From: Seonamhaeicola algicola
Lineage (GTDB): Bacteria; Bacteroidota; Bacteroidia; Flavobacteriales; Flavobacteriaceae
DNA length: 64,000 nt
Assembly (NCBI RefSeq): GCF_007997385.1
Contig: NZ_VOSC01000012.1
Location: 620,001-684,000, forward strand
Reading direction: 5' to 3'
In this document: positions 32,186 to 41,053 of the stretch, piece by piece
Position numbering within the stretch: position 1 is the first letter of the stretch
How the letters are laid out: each line of letters starts with the position of its first letter
Program-made: the position numbers and the translations under genes
The notes under the pieces: model-generated
What the model was told of the DNA's origin: nothing
What the model saw: the letters and a program-made list of their open reading frames with translations, nothing else
The model's database searches: none

Positions 32186-33499
32186 TTACAAATCGAAACC
32201 AATATTAACACCCAATTGGTTTGCTATAATTTTAGTAATGCGTTGTTTTAGTTCTGGTATTTTAACTGAGCTTAAAACGTTATTACTAAATGCATACATT
32301 AGTAATGCTTTGGCTTCTTTTTCTGGTATACCGCGAGAACGCATGTAAAACAATGCACTTTCATCTAACTGGCCAATGGTACAACCGTGTGAGCATTTTA
32401 CATCATCTGCAAAAATTTCTAGTTGTGGTTTGGTATTTATTGTTGCTTTATCGCTTACTAAAATATTATTATTGGCTTGAAAAGCGTTTGTTTTTTGGGC
32501 TTCTTTTTCAACAACTACTTTGCCGTTGAATACGCCTGTGGCACTATCTGAAAATATACCTTTATAATCTTGATGACTTTCGCAGTTTGGCTCAATGTGG
32601 TGTACAAGGGTATTGTGGTCTACGTGTTGTTTGTTGCCAATAATGGTAACGCCTTTTAGTGTTGAGTCTATACGTTCGCCTTCTTGATAGAAATTAAGGT
32701 TATTACGTGTTAATTTACCACCAAAAGAGAAGGTGTGTACAGAGGCAAAACTTTCTTGTTTTTGTTTTATGAAGGTGTTATCAATTAATGATGCGTTTTG
32801 CACATCGTTTTGTATTTTATAATAATCTACAATAGCGCGTTTTTTGGCAAAAATTTCGGTAACACTGTTGGTTAAAACCGGGTTGCTTGTTAGGCTTTGA
32901 TGGCGCTCAATAATTTGCACGTGTGCATTTTCTTCAACAACAATTAAGTTACGTGGTTGTAGCATGCTTGCGCACTCTAAACCTGTTGAAAAATGTATAA
33001 TTTGAATAGGCTTATCGGCTATTTTGTTTTTTGGTATGTGTATGTAGGCGCCTTCTTTAGAAAATGCTGTGTTTAATGATGATAAGCCATCTGTAGTGGC
33101 TGCTTTATTAAAGTAATTTTCAATTACTAACCTGTATTTTGGTTTTGTTAATGCGGCAGACATAAGGCAAACATCAATACCATCATGCGTGGTTGCAGAT
33201 AGGTGCGATGAGTATTTGCCATCTACAAATACAATTTTATAAGTGTCTATATCATGAATGAAATACTTTTTTACATCCTTATAATCTAAAGCGTCTTCTT
33301 TTTTTGGAAAAACGCTGTAGTCTTCTTTTAAAATTTTGTTTAAAGATGTGTATTTCCAAGCTTCATCTTTTTTTGTTGGAAAGCCTTTGGTTTCAAAGGT
33401 TTTTATAGCTTCGTTACGAACATCGTTAACGTAGGCGTTACCTTCGGTTTGGTTTTCAAAAACTATGAAAGATGATAATAATTTGTCTTTTAAATCCAT
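32186..33499 (-). CDS. sufD: Fe-S cluster assembly protein SufD
   Basis: Scaffold subunit that pairs with SufB in the SufBC2D complex on which clusters are built. The 437-residue protein shows the beta-helix core with NLIVVEENAHVQIIERH and the conserved C-terminal region EIFADDVKCSHGCTIGQLD followed by YMRSRGIP, matching the SufB/D family. It lies 91 bases after sufC on the same strand. Confidence 0.95.
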   Translation of the reverse strand: MDLKDKLLSSFIVFENQTEGNAYVNDVRNEAIKTFETKGFPTKKDEAWKYTSLNKILKEDYSVFPKKEDALDYKDVKKYFIHDIDTYKIVFVDGKYSSHLSATTHDGIDVCLMSAALTKPKYRLVIENYFNKAATTDGLSSLNTAFSKEGAYIHIPKNKIADKPIQIIHFSTGLECASMLQPRNLIVVEENAHVQIIERHQSLTSNPVLTNSVTEIFAKKRAIVDYYKIQNDVQNASLIDNTFIKQKQESFASVHTFSFGGKLTRNNLNFYQEGERIDSTLKGVTIIGNKQHVDHNTLVHHIEPNCESHQDYKGIFSDSATGVFNGKVVVEKEAQKTNAFQANNNILVSDKATINTKPQLEIFADDVKCSHGCTIGQLDESALFYMRSRGIPEKEAKALLMYAFSNNVLSSVKIPELKQRITKIIANQLGVNIGFDL

Positions 33500-33590
33500 T
33501 CTTTTAAGTTGAAATGTTTAAACGTTTAAAAGCAAAAAGGTGATGTTAACTTTAAACCTTGCAAACTTTTTACTTTTAACTTAGAGTTGG

Positions 33591-34340
33591 TTATGCCATC
33601 TCTTGTTTAATCCAATCGTATCCTTTTTCTTCAAGTTCGTGAGCCAGTTCTTTAGTGCCCGATTTTACTATTTTACCGTTATGTAAAACGTGTACAAAAT
33701 CTGGTACAATATAATCTAACAAGCGCTGGTAGTGCGTAATTACAATTACAGCATTGTCTTTGCTTTTTAGTTTGTTTACGCCGTTTGCAACAATACGAAG
33801 CGCATCAATATCTAAACCAGAGTCTGTTTCATCAAGAATAGCTAGTTTAGGTTCTAACATAGCCATTTGAAAAATTTCATTACGCTTTTTTTCACCACCC
33901 GAGAAGCCTTCGTTTAAAGAGCGCGATAAAAATTTACGGTCTATTTCTAATAAATCAGATTTTTCGCGGATTAGTTTTAGCATGTCTTTTGCAGGCATGT
34001 CTTCTAAACCTTTAGCTTTACGTGTTTCGTTAATTGCTGTTTTTATAAAGTTTGTTACCGATACACCTGGGATTTCTACAGGATACTGAAATGATAGAAA
34101 TATACCTTTATGAGCGCGTTCTTCGGCTGCTAATTCTTCAATATCTTCACCATCAAAAATTATGCTTCCTTCAGATACTTCGTATTCTTCTTTTCCTGCA
34201 ATTACTGATGAAAGCGTACTTTTACCAGAACCATTAGGTCCCATAATAGCATGTACTTCGCCTGGTTTTACTTCTAGATTTATACCTTTTAAAATGCTTT
34301 TATCTTCAACACTTGCGTGTAGGTTTTCTATCTTTAACAT
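33591..34340 (-). CDS. sufC: Fe-S cluster assembly ATPase SufC
   Basis: ABC-type ATPase of the SufBCD complex; soluble, not a transporter. Walker A GPNGSGKST (34-42), signature SGGEKKRNE, Walker B LAILDETDSGLD, H-loop VITHYQRLL. At 249 residues it has the usual length. The gene is between sufB (48 bases) and sufD. Confidence 0.97.
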   Translation of the reverse strand: MLKIENLHASVEDKSILKGINLEVKPGEVHAIMGPNGSGKSTLSSVIAGKEEYEVSEGSIIFDGEDIEELAAEERAHKGIFLSFQYPVEIPGVSVTNFIKTAINETRKAKGLEDMPAKDMLKLIREKSDLLEIDRKFLSRSLNEGFSGGEKKRNEIFQMAMLEPKLAILDETDSGLDIDALRIVANGVNKLKSKDNAVIVITHYQRLLDYIVPDFVHVLHNGKIVKSGTKELAHELEEKGYDWIKQEMA

Positions 34341-34388
34341 ATGTATTGGCTTCGTTTTTTTGTAATATTTTAATTTGAAATTATTGGT

Positions 34389-35837
34389 TTAACCAACGCT
34401 TCCTTCTAAACTTATTTCTAATAATTTTTGTGCTTCAACAGCAAACTCCATTGGTAATTTATTTAATACTTCTTTACTAAAACCGTTTACTATTAGTGCA
34501 ATGGCTTTTTCAGTATCTATACCACGTTGGTTACAATAAAATATTTGGTCTTCACCAATTTTACTTGTAGTAGCTTCGTGCTCTATTTGTGCTGTTTTGT
34601 TTTTTGCTTCAATGTAAGGGAAGGTGTGTGCACCACACTCGTTGCCCATTAATAAACTATCACATTGAGAAAAGTTACGTGCGTTTTCAGCTCTGGAGTG
34701 AATTTGCACCAATCCGCGGTATGAGTTTTGCGATTTTCCTGCTGAAATACCTTTTGATATAATGGTTGACTTGGTGTTTTTTCCAAGGTGAATCATTTTT
34801 GTTCCGGTATCAGCTTGTTGGTAATTATTGGTTACAGCTATAGAATAAAATTCGCCCACAGAATTATCACCTTTTAATACACACGATGGGTATTTCCAAG
34901 TTACTGCAGAACCAGTTTCTACTTGTGTCCATGAAATTTTTGCATTGGTTTCGCACAGGCCTCTTTTGGTTACAAAATTGTAAACACCACCTTTACCTTC
35001 GGCATTTCCAGGAAACCAGTTTTGTACTGTAGAGTATTTTATTTCGGCATCATCAAGTGCAATTAGCTCAACAACAGCTGCGTGTAATTGGTTTTCGTCT
35101 CTGCTTGGTGCTGTACAACCCTCAAGATAACTTACGTAGCTGCCTTGATCAGCAATTACTAATGTGCGCTCAAATTGGCCTGTTCCTGCTTGGTTTATAC
35201 GGAAATATGTTGATAGTTCCATAGGGCATCTTACGCCTTTTGGTATGTAGCAAAAACTACCATCACTAAAAACAGCACTGTTTAATGCGGCATAAAAATT
35301 ATCTTTTTGTGGCACTACAGTGCCAATATATTTTTTTACAAGGTCTGGATGTTTTTTTATGGCTTCAGAAATACTCATAAAAATAATACCTTGTTCTGCA
35401 AGTGTTTCTTTAAAGGTTGTTGCTACTGAAACAGAATCAACAACTACATCCATAGCCACACCTGCTAATTTTTTTTGCTCGTCTAATGAAATACCAAGTT
35501 TATCAAAAGTTGCCAGTAATTCAGGGTCAACTTCATCTAAACTATCATATTTTGGTTTACTGTTTGGTGCAGAATAATATGAAATGGCTTGAAAATCTGG
35601 TTTTTCATAGTTTACATTTGCCCATTCAGGTTCAGTCATGCTTTCCCAAACACGAAATGCTTCTAAGCGCCATTCAGTCATCCATTCTGGTTCTTCTTTC
35701 TTTTTTGAAATAGCGCGTACAATGTCTTCGTTTAAACCATTAGGAAACGTTTCAGATTCTATGTCTGTATAGAAACCATATTCGTATTCTTTGGTTTTTA
35801 ATTCTTCTCTTAAATCGTCCTCTGTATATTTGCTCAT
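34389..35837 (-). CDS. sufB: Fe-S cluster assembly protein SufB
   Basis: Main scaffold subunit of SufBC2D on which the nascent cluster is formed. Strong matches in this 482-residue protein are [47 protein letters not shown] (a conserved cysteine region) and [16 protein letters not shown]-type sequence, here [16 protein letters not shown]. It follows the A-type carrier gene after 52 bases. Confidence 0.97.
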
Positions 35838-35889
35838 TGTTCGAGTTTAATTTTTTTAAAAGTCTTCTTTTGTGAAGATTTATATAGGC

Positions 35890-36219
35890 TTACAGTGAAA
35901 ATGATTCACCACAACCGCAAGTTCTGTTGGCATTGGGGTTATTAAAAACAAAACCTGTACCATTTAAACCGCCCGAGTATTCTAGTGTTGTACCAATTAA
36001 GTACAAAAAGCTTTTTTTGTCTACAATAATTTTTACACCGTTGTCTTCAAAAACTTTATCATCTTCTTGTTGCTGTTTATCAAACTTTAAATCGTATGAT
36101 AACCCTGAGCAACCACCACTTTTAACTCCAACGCGAACAAAATCTGTAGTAGCGTTATAACCGTCTTCAGTCATAAGCTCTATCACTTTTTTCTTTGCTG
36201 TTTCTGAAACTTTAATCAT
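35890..36219 (-). CDS. HesB/IscA family A-type Fe-S carrier (SufA-like)
   Basis: A 109-residue cytoplasmic carrier that transfers Fe-S clusters to target proteins, first gene of the suf run. The three cluster ligands are visible: KSGGCSGL (Cys37) and TCGCGESF (Cys101, Cys103). I place the start at 36219 (MIKVSETAKKK), the position usual in the family. An upstream in-frame ATG at 36264 adds a poor 15-residue extension and lies upstream of the candidate promoter box at 36254-36261. Confidence 0.94.
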   Translation of the reverse strand: MIKVSETAKKKVIELMTEDGYNATTDFVRVGVKSGGCSGLSYDLKFDKQQQEDDKVFEDNGVKIIVDKKSFLYLIGTTLEYSGGLNGTGFVFNNPNANRTCGCGESFSL

Positions 36220-36253
36220 ACCTTTTGTGTTTAGATTTGCTCTAAATTGACTG

Positions 36254-36261
36254 CAAATATA
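36254..36261 (-). promoter_or_regulatory. Candidate -7 element for the suf operon
   Basis: TATATTTG on the minus strand, an exact TAnnTTTG match, 34 bases upstream of the chosen start of the A-type carrier. The -33 region has no TTTG. Confidence 0.45.
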
Positions 36262-36312
36262 CAATATAAGTCAGCGATAACCATGTTACCTAACATTATA
36301 TTAATAAATGTT

Positions 36313-36516
36313 CTAATAAGTTTTTCTTATATAGGTAAAATGATGTTTTTTTATGACTTTTTCTGAAGTTTTCGCAACAGGAACAATATCGCCATGTGTG
36401 TTGTATGTAAAGTGCTGTTTACAATTTTTACATATAAGGTGAGGCGAATCATCTACACGGAAAAAATTATGCCCATAGGCATAACAATATAAGTTTGCTG
36501 TAGATTTGTGCTTCAT
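36313..36516 (-). CDS. Small Cys/His protein, putative zinc-binding (family copy 1)
   Basis: A 67-residue basic protein with Cys11 and His16 (LYCYAYGHNF) and the pair Cys29/Cys32 (LICKNCKQ). The pattern C-x4-H-x12-C-x2-C recurs, with spacer x16, in the proteins at 42201 and 42526, which are clearly related to each other and more distantly to this one. The spacing could bind one zinc, resembling the small phage-associated DUF1660 zinc proteins by motif only. It stands alone between the suf genes and the cytochrome operon, on the minus strand. Function is unknown. Confidence 0.7.
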   Translation of the reverse strand: MKHKSTANLYCYAYGHNFFRVDDSPHLICKNCKQHFTYNTHGDIVPVAKTSEKVIKKHHFTYIRKTY

Positions 36517-36611
36517 TCTGAGGGATTAAACCTCCAAAATAAAAAAATGATTAAAATTTTTGCTGCGTAAAAACCGTACTTTACTAAAAAATGTAATTTT
36601 TATTAGAAAAA

Positions 36612-37661
36612 TTAGTTTTTTATAAAGTCAAAATCAGTTAACGTTAGTAAAAAAGCTTTTAAATTGGCTTTGTCTTCATTGGTAAGTTGTACGCCTCCTT
36701 GGGCAATTTTTTTCATTAATGGATCAATGGTTGATGAGTTTTTTAAACCTTCGCTGTAGTGGTTTATTACTTCTTCTAATGTTGAAAATCTGCCATCATG
36801 CATATATGGTGCTGTGAAAGCTAAATTTCTAATGGATGGTGTTTTGAATTTTCCGTTATCAGCAGGATCACCCGTTATGGCTCCCAAACCTAAATCTGTA
36901 AATTCACTATCTAAGCCATTATTGTGAAAAAGATTATCTGTCCATAACGGATTGTTTTCAGTGCCATGACAATGAAAACAATCGCCTCTGTTTTCATCCA
37001 TAAAAACGTTAAATCCGTTTTGTTCTTGAGGCGTTAAAGTAGTTAAACCCAAAAGAAATTTATCAAATTTTGAAGTGGCTGAAATTAAAGTACGCTCAAA
37101 TTGGGCAATGGCTTTTGTAACTAAAGTAGAATCTATTTTTGAGGTTCCGAAGGCTTGTTTGAATAATTCTGGATATTCAGGGTGACTGTTTAAGCTTTGT
37201 TCAACGTTTTGCCAAGTGTTTCCCATTTCGTTAACATCAATAACTGGCTGAATTGCTTGGTGTTCTAAACTAAAAACACTGCCGTCCCAAAAGAATTTTT
37301 CATCATAATTCCACGCAAGGTTAAAAAGAGGCATGGCATTACGTTTGCTTAAAGTTTGGTTAACGCCATTGCTAAAGCGGTTACTATCGGTAAAAGCATT
37401 TTGTGGTAAGTGGCAATTGGCACAAGCAATAGTGTTGTTTATTGATAAAATAGGATCAAAAAATAGTTTTTTACCCAAAGCAATGCCTTCTTTGGTTTGT
37501 TGGTTATCAATTGGTATTACAGGGTTTAGTATTCTGGCCTCAAACAATTGGGGTATTTCCAAAGGGCTTGGTGTAGGTGTATAGCTATCAACGGTTTCGG
37601 TGTTGCACGCTAATAAAACCAAAAACAGTAAAGTAGCAATATGTGGAAACTTTGCATTCAA
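36612..37661 (-). CDS. Di-haem cytochrome c peroxidase/MauG family lipoprotein (MbnH-like)
   Basis: A 349-residue exported di-haem protein (lipobox LLAC, Cys19). Haem c sites are CANCH (Cys80-His84) and CFHCH (Cys228-His232); the TAPYMHDGRF segment (283-292) is where the distal ligand of the second haem lies in this family. Members are either peroxide-reducing peroxidases or MauG-type enzymes that oxidise protein Trp or Tyr. Its gene is 7 bases after an MbnP-family gene, which favours the MbnH role: making a kynurenine-modified copper site in the partner. It is the last gene of a four-lipoprotein operon. Confidence 0.9.
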   Translation of the reverse strand: MNAKFPHIATLLFLVLLACNTETVDSYTPTPSPLEIPQLFEARILNPVIPIDNQQTKEGIALGKKLFFDPILSINNTIACANCHLPQNAFTDSNRFSNGVNQTLSKRNAMPLFNLAWNYDEKFFWDGSVFSLEHQAIQPVIDVNEMGNTWQNVEQSLNSHPEYPELFKQAFGTSKIDSTLVTKAIAQFERTLISATSKFDKFLLGLTTLTPQEQNGFNVFMDENRGDCFHCHGTENNPLWTDNLFHNNGLDSEFTDLGLGAITGDPADNGKFKTPSIRNLAFTAPYMHDGRFSTLEEVINHYSEGLKNSSTIDPLMKKIAQGGVQLTNEDKANLKAFLLTLTDFDFIKN

Positions 37662-37668
37662 AAAAAAA

Positions 37669-38433
37669 TTAGTTTATTGATTTTAAGTTGAATACACTTT
37701 GTCCGTTATCAAACATCATAATTTGTGCATTAGTATTGGGCATTAACGTTTGGTGTAGTTGGTTTAAATTCCATGTGTGTGGGTTTTTAAACCATTCGGC
37801 AATATTCATTTCAATATTAAAAGTAGTATTATCTGAAATTGAAACAGGTCCTAAATTTACTTTTATAAAAGTGTCTTTAGGAAATGTTGGTGTATCGCCA
37901 GAGGCATCAACAGCTCTAATGGCATGAAAGTTATAACCAATAGTTTCATCACTTTCATTTTTAAATTTTCCGTCTAGTTGCATGTAATGGTAGCCGCCAC
38001 CAAGCATTTCTGGGACACCAAAAATTGCGGTGTTTAAATCTTCATAAGCAGCGCTTATATTTTTTTCATTTTTGAAACCAAATATAAAAGACATATTATT
38101 ATAATTGCCAGTTAATATGGGTGCTGTTGGTGCAAAAGTTAAATTTTTATTATTAGTTACATCAACTAAATTATGAGCGTTTATTACAATAAGCTCGCCG
38201 TTTGATGTTTCTAAAGTCACATCAGATATTACATAGCGCAAGCGTTCAATCTTTAATTGTTCACCGTTTTTGGTGGTGAATTTAAAGGTGTTAAAATCTG
38301 CATTTGTTACAGGAACACCATCCCAAGTGTGCGAAAAATTCAAGGTTATATTTTTGCTTTCTATTGTTTCTTCAGAATCAGTACATGATAGTACTGTTAA
38401 TATAATGAGTAATGTGAAAATTATTTTTTTCAT
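37669..38433 (-). CDS. MbnP family copper-binding lipoprotein
   Basis: A 254-residue lipoprotein (lipobox VLSC, Cys17). The family opening FSHTWDGVPV (33-42), the LRYVISDVTL segment, GGGYHYMQLDG (145-155) and the closing NPHTWNLNQLHQTLMPN match MbnP/CorA-type copper proteins. In characterised members one Trp is converted to kynurenine by an MbnH enzyme and takes part in copper binding. Candidate residues here are Trp37, Trp214 and Trp221 with His35, His149, His170, His219 and His227. It is immediately upstream of the di-haem gene (7 bases) and 11 bases after the propeller gene, supporting one operon. Confidence 0.85.
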   Translation of the reverse strand: MKKIIFTLLIILTVLSCTDSEETIESKNITLNFSHTWDGVPVTNADFNTFKFTTKNGEQLKIERLRYVISDVTLETSNGELIVINAHNLVDVTNNKNLTFAPTAPILTGNYNNMSFIFGFKNEKNISAAYEDLNTAIFGVPEMLGGGYHYMQLDGKFKNESDETIGYNFHAIRAVDASGDTPTFPKDTFIKVNLGPVSISDNTTFNIEMNIAEWFKNPHTWNLNQLHQTLMPNTNAQIMMFDNGQSVFNLKSIN

Positions 38434-38444
38434 TTTTTTTGAAA

Positions 38445-39782
38445 TTATTTCAGTCTGAAAATTAAAAGGTCTGTAAAGCCTTGGTTTGTTATGTTGAAAT
38501 TTGAACTGCTAGATTCGCCAACGGCAATTACCTCGCCATTGGTTAATTCAATGGCGCTGTAAGCTAAATCTACATTGCTGCCACCAACGGTTTGTTGCCA
38601 TACTAAATTGCCGTTACTATTGAGTTTTACAATCCAAGCATCATTTTGTCCGTTGTTTTTTAAAACATCATTATTGCTGCTTCTGGTATTTCCTGCAATT
38701 AAAAAACCATTATCTGCAGTTTTTGAAATAGCGCGTGCAGCATCAAAGTTGTTGCCGCCAATAGTTTTTTCCCAAAGTAATTGCCCGTTTGTATTAATTT
38801 TTATAATCCATAAATCTGCAGCACCGTTGTTTTTTGTAATATCAATATCATTACTTCGTGTATCACCAACAATAATAAAATTGCCGTCGGATATTTGGGT
38901 AATGGCTCTGGCCTCATCAATTTGCGAACCTCCAAACGATTTTTCCCATATAAAATCACCATTTTCAGATATTTTAACTACCCAAAAATCATAGGTGCCT
39001 TTATTGTTTTTCACATCAAAATCAAAACTATCAGAAGAGCCAACAAGTATAAAGTCATTGGTGTTGGTTTGTGTAATGTCGTAAGGTGTATCGGTAAATG
39101 TGCCGCCAAAATATTTGCTCCATTGTAGGTTGCCGTTAGCATCAAGTTTTATAGCCCAATAATCGCCACCGGCATGTCTTTTTGCAGAAAGTTTTGTATT
39201 ACCCTGTCCGTTTGAGGCAGAAACATCTAAAACTCCTGTAATTAAAAAGCCATTATCATTGGTTTGAATTAAAGATGTGCCAGTATCGGCACCAGAAAAC
39301 CCAAACGATTTCTCCCAAATAATATCACCAGAGCTGTTGGTTTTTATCATCCAAAAATCATCAAAGCCGTTGTTGTTTGAAACATCTAAATCATTGCTTT
39401 TACTAGCGCCTAAAATAGCAAAACCACCATCATGGGTTTCAATGATGCAATTTCCACGATCATCATTGGTGCCTCCATAGTTTTTTTGCCATTGTAACTT
39501 GTGTTGATTGTTAAATTTTAGTAGCCAATAATCAAATGAGTTGTTTGTTTTTGAGGTAACATTACCATCGGTACTTTGCGTGTAGCCTAAAACTGCATAA
39601 CCACCATCTTGGGTTTGAGTAACTGAGCGAGCGCTTTCGTTTTTAGAGCCACCTAAAGTTGTAATTATCACGCTTTCAGTTGGGGTGCTTATACTATTTT
39701 CTGAATTGTTTTCTTCTGAACAGTTAAAAACAAAAATTAGAAAAAAAATGTAAGTGTAGTATGTTTTTGAGGCTTGAAACAT
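38445..39782 (-). CDS. Seven-repeat beta-propeller lipoprotein
   Basis: A 445-residue lipoprotein (lipobox VFNC, Cys21). The mature part consists of seven repeats of roughly 50-60 residues, each with a GG..DxA..I..T.DGGF.I.G.T start and a final D.W..K....G...W.K strand (YWLLK, FWMIK, YWAIK, FWVVK, LWIIK, AWIVK, LLIFR). This predicts a seven-bladed propeller. No catalytic motif. It is coupled to the choice-of-anchor B gene (5 bases) and the MbnP-like gene (11 bases). A binding or scaffold role at the cell surface is inferred. Confidence 0.82.
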   Translation of the reverse strand: MFQASKTYYTYIFFLIFVFNCSEENNSENSISTPTESVIITTLGGSKNESARSVTQTQDGGYAVLGYTQSTDGNVTSKTNNSFDYWLLKFNNQHKLQWQKNYGGTNDDRGNCIIETHDGGFAILGASKSNDLDVSNNNGFDDFWMIKTNSSGDIIWEKSFGFSGADTGTSLIQTNDNGFLITGVLDVSASNGQGNTKLSAKRHAGGDYWAIKLDANGNLQWSKYFGGTFTDTPYDITQTNTNDFILVGSSDSFDFDVKNNKGTYDFWVVKISENGDFIWEKSFGGSQIDEARAITQISDGNFIIVGDTRSNDIDITKNNGAADLWIIKINTNGQLLWEKTIGGNNFDAARAISKTADNGFLIAGNTRSSNNDVLKNNGQNDAWIVKLNSNGNLVWQQTVGGSNVDLAYSAIELTNGEVIAVGESSSSNFNITNQGFTDLLIFRLK

Positions 39783-39787
39783 TTTGA

Positions 39788-41053
39788 TTAGGTTCCAGAT
39801 TTTCTAACTATAAAAAGGCCGTTAGTGCCATCGCTAATAATTATGTTACCGCTTGGTAAATATGGGTAAACTGTCCAAGCGCCATCAAAACCTGTGTTGT
39901 CATCATCAGGGTAGGTGTCAAAAAAACCAATTTCTGTAAATGATTTATTGTTTATTGCTGAAATATCTAAAACACGCATGCCAGCATTGTAGTTGGCAAG
40001 AAAGAAATTGTTGTTTAAAGTATACCCGTTGTGGTCTATAGCAGTTGTGGGGCCAAAGTAATCAAAGTGTACTAGTGGGTTATCTAAATCTGTAAAATCA
40101 AAAATAATAGTTTTGGTATTAATTCCAAGTCTTAGTTCATCAAGTTCGTCACCTAAAATAAAATAGGTCATATCTGAAGTAAACCAACCTTGGTGTGCAT
40201 ATCTAACATTATTGTAAGTTATTTTAGAAATAATGGTGGGGTTGTTTTTATCGGTTACATTAGCAATAACCACTTCGTTTTCGTTACTGCCAATTAAAAT
40301 TTCATCACCAAAATAATCGGCATCTGGCCCGTTGTAAGTTACAACTTGGGCGTCGTGTGAGTAGCCTCCAGCGCCAAAACCGCCTTCCATAACGGGGTTT
40401 TTAGGGTCTTGAATATTTATAAAAATAGGGCCGCCAGCAAATGCGTTGCTTCTGTTGCCTCCAACAATGTAAGCGTAACCGCTAGTTTCATTAATAACTA
40501 TATTGTGAGCTCTACCAAAACCTGTAAAATGTGTGTCGGCAGTAAAAGTTTCAGGCGGATTGCTTACGTTTCGTAGTCTGGTTAAATCAAAAACTTGCAT
40601 ACCGTGGCTATCTTCACCCACATTATTATCAGCTACAATAAAAGCGTGGTTGTTGTACACTTTAACATCACGCCAAGGGCTTGCAATGGTTGCAGTTGGT
40701 AATTTGCCTAAATATAAAGGGTTTAATGCATCGGTAATGTCTACAAAGGCTACGCCGTTATCGGTACACATAAGTGCATATTCTTTGTTGGTTTCAGTAT
40801 CAACCCAACCCCAAGAGTCATTACCTGCGTTAGCATTAAAAACACTTAGCGGTAAATTGGCCATTAAATCATAATCATTACATGGGTAAATATCCGCAAA
40901 ACCATTAGTGCATGCCGCTAAAACTTCAGTGTTTGTGTTAGTATCATTATTTATGGGTAAATTATTATCTCTTTCACAAGCAAATAAAAACGAAAAAATA
41001 CCTGCTATAATTGCAAAATATTTGAAAGTTATCTTCTTTTTATAGTAAATCAT
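39788..41053 (-). CDS. Choice-of-anchor B family lipoprotein (LVIVD-type propeller)
   Basis: First gene of the four-lipoprotein operon, 421 residues, lipobox LFAC (Cys26). The WGWVDTETNKEYALM, VFDLTRLRNVSNPP, YSHDAQVVTYNGPD and MRVLDISAI segments are those of choice-of-anchor B proteins, whose LVIVD repeats form a propeller. Three conserved His blocks (RAHNIV, YSHDAQ, YAHQGWF) could bind metal. Its neighbours, a second propeller, MbnP and an MbnH-like enzyme, suggest a part in copper handling at the surface, but this is inference. Confidence 0.85.
   Translation of the reverse strand: MIYYKKKITFKYFAIIAGIFSFLFACERDNNLPINNDTNTNTEVLAACTNGFADIYPCNDYDLMANLPLSVFNANAGNDSWGWVDTETNKEYALMCTDNGVAFVDITDALNPLYLGKLPTATIASPWRDVKVYNNHAFIVADNNVGEDSHGMQVFDLTRLRNVSNPPETFTADTHFTGFGRAHNIVINETSGYAYIVGGNRSNAFAGGPIFINIQDPKNPVMEGGFGAGGYSHDAQVVTYNGPDADYFGDEILIGSNENEVVIANVTDKNNPTIISKITYNNVRYAHQGWFTSDMTYFILGDELDELRLGINTKTIIFDFTDLDNPLVHFDYFGPTTAIDHNGYTLNNNFFLANYNAGMRVLDISAINNKSFTEIGFFDTYPDDDNTGFDGAWTVYPYLPSGNIIISDGTNGLFIVRKSGT

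Follow-up and report, generated by a model that had tools for sequence, protein, structure and literature searches.

Organisation of the locus

The analysed window, a stretch of 64,000 bp of the Seonamhaeicola algicola genome, carries four lipoprotein genes on the minus strand. They encode a choice-of-anchor B protein, which is a predicted propeller (CAB, positions 39788-41053), a protein with seven DxW..K-type repeats (PROP, 38445-39782), an MbnP-like protein of a divergent clade (37669-38433) and a di-haem protein related to MbnH and MauG (36612-37661), the listed reading frame of which opens with TTG. The ORF coordinates give intergenic gaps of 5, 11 and 7 bases, in agreement with the initial annotation of the sequence, and its reading of all four products as lipoproteins is borne out by a lipobox-like cysteine in each protein that is conserved among relatives: C19 in 56 of 57 MbnH, C17 in all 57 MbnP, C21 in 56 of 57 PROP, and C26 in CAB, with a conservation of at least 90% across 34 rows. 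The 57-locus residue counts exclude L041, L088, L090 and L091, where canonical pairs (with an MxWxW motif in MbnP) lie away from the operon. An acidic export signal is described for Bacteroidetes in the accessible part of PMC5080379. At least two acidic residues at positions +2 to +7 were found in 42 of 99 CAB, 56 of 99 PROP, 51 of 67 MbnP and 40 of 66 MbnH proteins, these being raw counts in which the cysteine was chosen by a crude rule, which at times picks a residue of the signal peptide instead; this is suggestive of a surface location for the operon lipoproteins.

The operon lies upstream of iscA-sufBCD in the same direction, together spanning window positions 32186-41053, and the same holds in the listed relatives where both were seen; with a short gap, the two may be transcribed together. 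Also on the minus strand, between the MbnH gene and iscA, lies an ORF of 67 residues that contains a CKNC motif (36313-36516); of 98 related loci, six have a similar stretch, and each of the six carries a divergent pair. As initially noted, no methanobactin genes accompany the operon, and the MbnB/TglH family (PF05114), taken as the mark of a methanobactin operon, has no match in the entire genome. Pfam and NCBIfam profile matches include no SCO1 or TonB gene among the four, and when a single TonB receptor served as probe, nothing matched it within the 18 kb of window sequence that was read, and just two of the 99 operon loci (L174 and L252) gave a match.

Conservation and chromosomal address

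In Flavobacteriaceae the operon occupies one fixed place, in the order thiL / CAB-PROP-[MbnP-MbnH]-iscA-sufB-sufC-sufD. Among 199 sampled genomes of the family, 99 have MbnP and 105 have CAB (E <= 1e-60). The order CAB-PROP-MbnP-MbnH was found in 56 of 60 stretches, the other four being canonical pairs located elsewhere, and recurs well beyond chance. The best 80 of 452 relatives all have PROP-MbnP-MbnH, and 79 of them have CAB as well, L132 beginning at a contig edge; these 80 are labelled as Flavobacteriaceae or its genera, plus a few broader or odd labels.

A set of 99 loci that contain CAB together with PROP, chosen for fetching and not drawn at random, comprises 61 with a divergent MbnP, 6 with a canonical one and 32 without the MbnP-MbnH pair; L178, L240, L243 and L265, which have CAB and no detected PROP, were left out. 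MbnH is present in 66 of the 67 MbnP-bearing loci, the remaining one being truncated by a contig end, and in L269 about 4 kb separates MbnP from MbnH. Many marine flavobacteria carry two propeller-like lipoproteins at one address, often together with a swappable MbnP/MbnH pair, related to those that make a copper site in methanotrophs. In the survey of Bacteroidota that had been proposed from the sequence, the operon is widely conserved in Flavobacteriaceae, and elsewhere in the phylum neither CAB nor PROP was found within about 6 kb of any of the 52 MbnP loci fetched. The phylum sample includes 110 genomes with CAB, and in 84 of these a comparison of the tables by eye showed no MbnP match.

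The MbnH-like enzyme

The assignment of the last two genes to the MbnP and MbnH families was upheld by Pfam matches over the cut-offs. The enzyme scores 194.1 bits against CCP_MauG (PF03150; cut-off 25.6); its best NCBIfam match is the MbnH family TIGR04039, at 242.2 bits below the cut-off of 362.85, and its best PDB match is 6E1C (E 1.6e-48). In MbnH and MauG the distal haem ligand is Tyr instead of Met. The window protein contains two haem-binding motifs (CANCH and CFHCH), Trp125 and Tyr302, the last of which aligns with 6E1C. Two CxxCH motifs are present in all 66 operon MbnH proteins, and Tyr occupies the distal position in 64 of them (58 recognised by motif and six as printed), the other two being unresolved and none having Met. 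The S. algicola genome contains six MauG/CCP genes over the PF03150 cut-off, two of which adjoin its two MbnP genes.

An altered site in the MbnP-like protein

The MbnP-like protein scores 91.6 bits against PF20243 (cut-off 27), and the six best Foldseek matches of its structure model are all chains of MbnP 7L6G (TM 0.49-0.53), the best with E 1.3e-6 and TM 0.53; in this model segments 135-141 and 143-146 have pLDDT below 50. It has no NCBIfam match, including to the four-Cys MbnP type TIGR04052, and Cys17 is its sole cysteine. Canonical relatives and 7L6G share an MxWxW motif, and Manesis et al. in 2021 reportedly found its first Trp converted to kynurenine, with His, Met and solvent as the copper ligands. 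The first WxW Trp aligns with position 138, which is Trp in 50 of 57 loci and Phe in seven, including the window; the residue two positions before it is Ala136 here. Among 127 non-redundant divergent MbnPs, Phe138 occurs in 31 and Met at W-2 in none, and the second WxW Trp is mostly Val. Of the cultured relatives, Algibacter luteus (L100) has Trp138 and Winogradskyella haliclonae (L120) has Phe138. His149 is invariant in the divergent clade and absent from canonical MbnP; His170, which is retained from the canonical histidines, and Met231 are likewise invariant in the clade, and Trp221 is found in 126 of 126 sequences.

This alignment contradicts the earlier proposal of a kynurenine mark at Trp37, Trp214 or Trp221, and all three were rejected as the family site. 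Trp221 is possibly a different target of MbnH, separate from that site. With Phe at position 138, either His149 and His170 would bind metal without kynurenine, or MbnH would act on another residue, for example Trp221. On the MbnH tree position 138 changed at least three times by forced changes, and six times by the fewest changes, with MbnH retained. MbnH positions 95, 96, 124, 130 and 134 differ between the Trp138 and Phe138 groups; the window enzyme, from a Phe138 locus, has the commoner Trp-type letters, and this co-variation was read as ancestry.

The two propeller-type lipoproteins

Both propeller-type partners named in the initial annotation were recovered, CAB by its family match and propeller-like model and PROP by its seven repeats. 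CAB scores 542.5 bits against TIGR04312 (cut-off 100). Its model (pLDDT 86) matches propellers, the best in the PDB being the Sphingobium TCM1 phosphotriesterase 5HRM (TM 0.64), a binuclear metal enzyme; identity to it is 14%, the sequence match is not significant (E 0.47), and the alignment of its GGFH stretch with the His183 region of CAB is very weak. His183, His233, His287 and His341 are near-invariant, each missing from at most one of the 122 aligned CABs. In the model they are spaced about 50 residues apart, each on an inner strand or immediately ahead of one, an arrangement in which the four may cluster in space as a central site. A Trp-Gly-Trp motif is found in all 118 ungapped rows of the 122.

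The conserved His and Trp residues of CAB are kept both with and without the pair and 84 of the 110 CAB-positive genomes are free of MbnP, so CAB does not depend on the pair. Identical residues in pairless loci also gave no support to CAB as an MbnH substrate, and this candidate was dropped. At least two CABs per genome were counted in 29 of 67 pair-bearing and 0 of 31 pairless cases (98 of 99 loci mapped, L179 being unmapped), a link that is not significant after tree correction, where about two of five pairs differ (p 0.5). CAB tandem repeats (L033, L038, L059, L064 and others) reach nine copies per genome, and long CABs with HYR or MAM domains had a type IX sorting tail in both of the two tested.

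PROP has only weak propeller and SBBP matches, under the cut-offs, in Pfam and NCBIfam, and the seventh of its repeats is degenerate. Three positions stand out in the 99 loci. A His165-Asp-His167 motif is present in all 32 loci without the pair and in none of the 67 with it; conversely, Arg309 is present in all 67 pair-bearing loci and in none of the pairless ones, and His203 is found in all 99. The window PROP has Ala165 and Thr167 where pairless loci have His-x-His, and it has Arg309. His is absent from positions 165 and 167 in all 15 PROP paralogues encoded away from the operon; three of them have His in the His203 column and one has Arg in the Arg309 column.

Inheritance of the MbnP-MbnH pair

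A tree of 88 MbnH rows, built by a quick method and including 27 of the 61 divergent operons, places the divergent-operon enzymes (27) and the canonical-operon enzymes (6) in separate single clades, each with a starred support of 99. The canonical-operon group lies with free pairs of Flavobacteriaceae. The presence of two MbnH clades at this address indicates that the pair arrived twice or that one type displaced the other.

Presence of the pair requires one change on the PROP tree, seven on the CAB tree (three forced) and eight on a host-marker tree of SufB, ThiL, IscA and SufC, where starred branches force five of the eight and 97 of the 99 loci had enough markers. PROP and the pair therefore appear to travel together. 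The switch between His-Asp-His and MbnP-MbnH is a single event on the PROP tree (support 93, unstarred), so that the contrast of 32 and 67 loci does not amount to 99 observations, and either form may have come first. On the host tree, five of five independent pairs agree between the His-Asp-His motif and the presence of the pair (p 0.0625), and these look like joint transfers of PROP and the pair.

Comparison with known systems

As in the methanotroph proteins (7L6G and 6E1C), an MbnP fold is encoded here beside a MauG-like di-haem enzyme with two CxxCH motifs and the Tyr. In contrast to them, the operon comes without an MbnB gene and adds two propeller lipoproteins, and the MbnP-like protein has no cysteine except that of the lipobox and belongs to a clade that has lost MxWxW, with Phe138 in this genome. 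That the MbnP/MbnH pair is spread well past the methanobactin producers was already published, according to the available part of PMC3621798, and MbnPH-like genes of other bacteria share operons with copper TonB receptors and chaperones, as an excerpt of PMC9426467 reports.

CorA, a Cu(I) protein of the cell surface that copper represses, contains two His and kynurenine. In the CorA/CorB and MopE/SACCP systems a surface-associated copper protein with two His ligands is encoded with a MauG-like enzyme (PMC3912023, seen in extract), much as the putative copper protein is here; they differ from the window protein, which has no Trp at the aligned position. Neither CorA nor MopE appeared in the phmmer result or in the list of 50 Foldseek matches of MbnP, out of 546. 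In the mtoX-SCO1-mauG operon, a Cu-dependent methanethiol oxidase (SBP56) with conserved His, and also Trp, is encoded beside SCO1 and MauG genes (PMC5739008, in the part available); the four genes described here include no SCO1, and the 50 fold matches listed for CAB, out of 1438, did not include SBP56.

The pair, its wide spread (PMC3621798, as excerpted) and the enzyme class were already known. The papers searched described neither the set of four genes nor its constant position, and contained nothing on the occurrence of two MbnH lineages there or on the changed MbnP site. A search of titles and abstracts found no paper on the four-gene operon; it mostly did not extend to subscription papers, which may describe it.

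Possible role of the operon

The reading favoured here, with a probability of about 0.4, is that of an envelope, probably surface, metal-handling assembly in which a constant CAB is combined with an exchangeable PROP-MbnP-MbnH copper cassette. CAB would bind metal at a histidine site in its centre. MbnH would oxidise its partner MbnP, which would hold a copper ion, and PROP would dock the two and hand metal to CAB; in the 32 of 99 pairless loci, PROP's own His-Asp-His and His203 would replace the pair. Consistent with this are the fixed address and order, the two MbnH clades, the co-inheritance on the PROP tree and the pattern of His-Asp-His, Arg309 and His203, as well as the CAB histidines with the 5HRM-like fold, the CAB copy numbers and the different neighbours of the free pairs described below. 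By analogy, the methanethiol oxidase encoded beside SCO1 and MauG may serve as a precedent (PMC5739008, in part). Against it stand the single origin of the His-Asp-His switch, the non-significant CAB copy link, the independence of CAB from the pair, the lack of SCO1 and TonB genes among the four, and a 5HRM-like fold that suits other metals and hydrolysis equally. A related reading, possible but on the doubtful side, places two alternating metal sites at one address, either the His-Asp-His/His site of PROP or an MbnP finished by a MauG-like enzyme of one of two lineages; as MbnP in the window lineage lacks the usual kynurenine residue, MbnH would need a new target here.

Surface copper acquisition or sensing, the role suggested in the initial annotation, is rather unlikely; in this reading MbnP would capture scarce copper, MbnH would finish its site and the propellers would present or relay the metal. 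The TonB receptor and chaperone operons of other bacteria (PMC9426467, in part) and CorA (PMC3912023, in part) offer precedents, and the invariant His149 and His170 would form a CorA-like ligand pair; yet the window protein has Phe for the first WxW Trp, as do 31 of 127 divergent proteins, all 127 lack the Met, the pair is missing from 32 of 99 loci, and the TonB probe found nothing in the 18 kb read and matched only two of the 99 loci. The repeated change of position 138 (at least three times) under a retained MbnH, while Trp221 stayed in 126 of 126, would suit an enzyme that modifies some other residue, either Trp221 or a tryptophan in one of the two propeller-type proteins, such as those of the conserved Trp-Gly-Trp of CAB (118 of 118), to make a redox cofactor instead of a kynurenine copper site. 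This is quite unlikely, given that Trp221 may be structural and that nearly all conserved Trp residues of PROP and CAB are kept in pairless loci, and so need another reason. A plain di-haem peroxidase guarding envelope proteins, beside an MbnP that has lost metal binding, would fit the disappearance of the Met ligand from the clade and of the Trp from the window protein. It is very unlikely in view of the distal Tyr in place of Met in 64 of 66 operon enzymes, aligned with MbnH 6E1C, the invariance of His149 and His170, and the presence of MbnH in 66 of 67 MbnP loci, the last being cut by a contig end.

MbnP and MbnH became known through the copper biology of methanotrophs. The pairless, canonical and divergent forms of the operon occur in flavobacteria, several of them cultured, and so provide natural controls; their comparison can reveal roles of MauG-like enzymes beyond methanotrophs and the function of the large choice-of-anchor B family.

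A second MbnP-MbnH operon type

A second, canonical MbnP-MbnH pair is present on another contig of the same genome (L088:7396-10795; L001 is the same place). It is flanked upstream by a 127-residue protein with a CNGKC motif and downstream by a 333-residue protein with an LCDLCSC motif, neither of which has a Pfam match. Both flanking genes accompany all 25 free Flavobacteriaceae pairs in L003-L031 and none of the four PROP-linked loci there, and the free pair with these two proteins is a second conserved MbnPH operon type. Homologues were found in 45 loci for the CNGKC protein and in 39 for the 333-residue protein.
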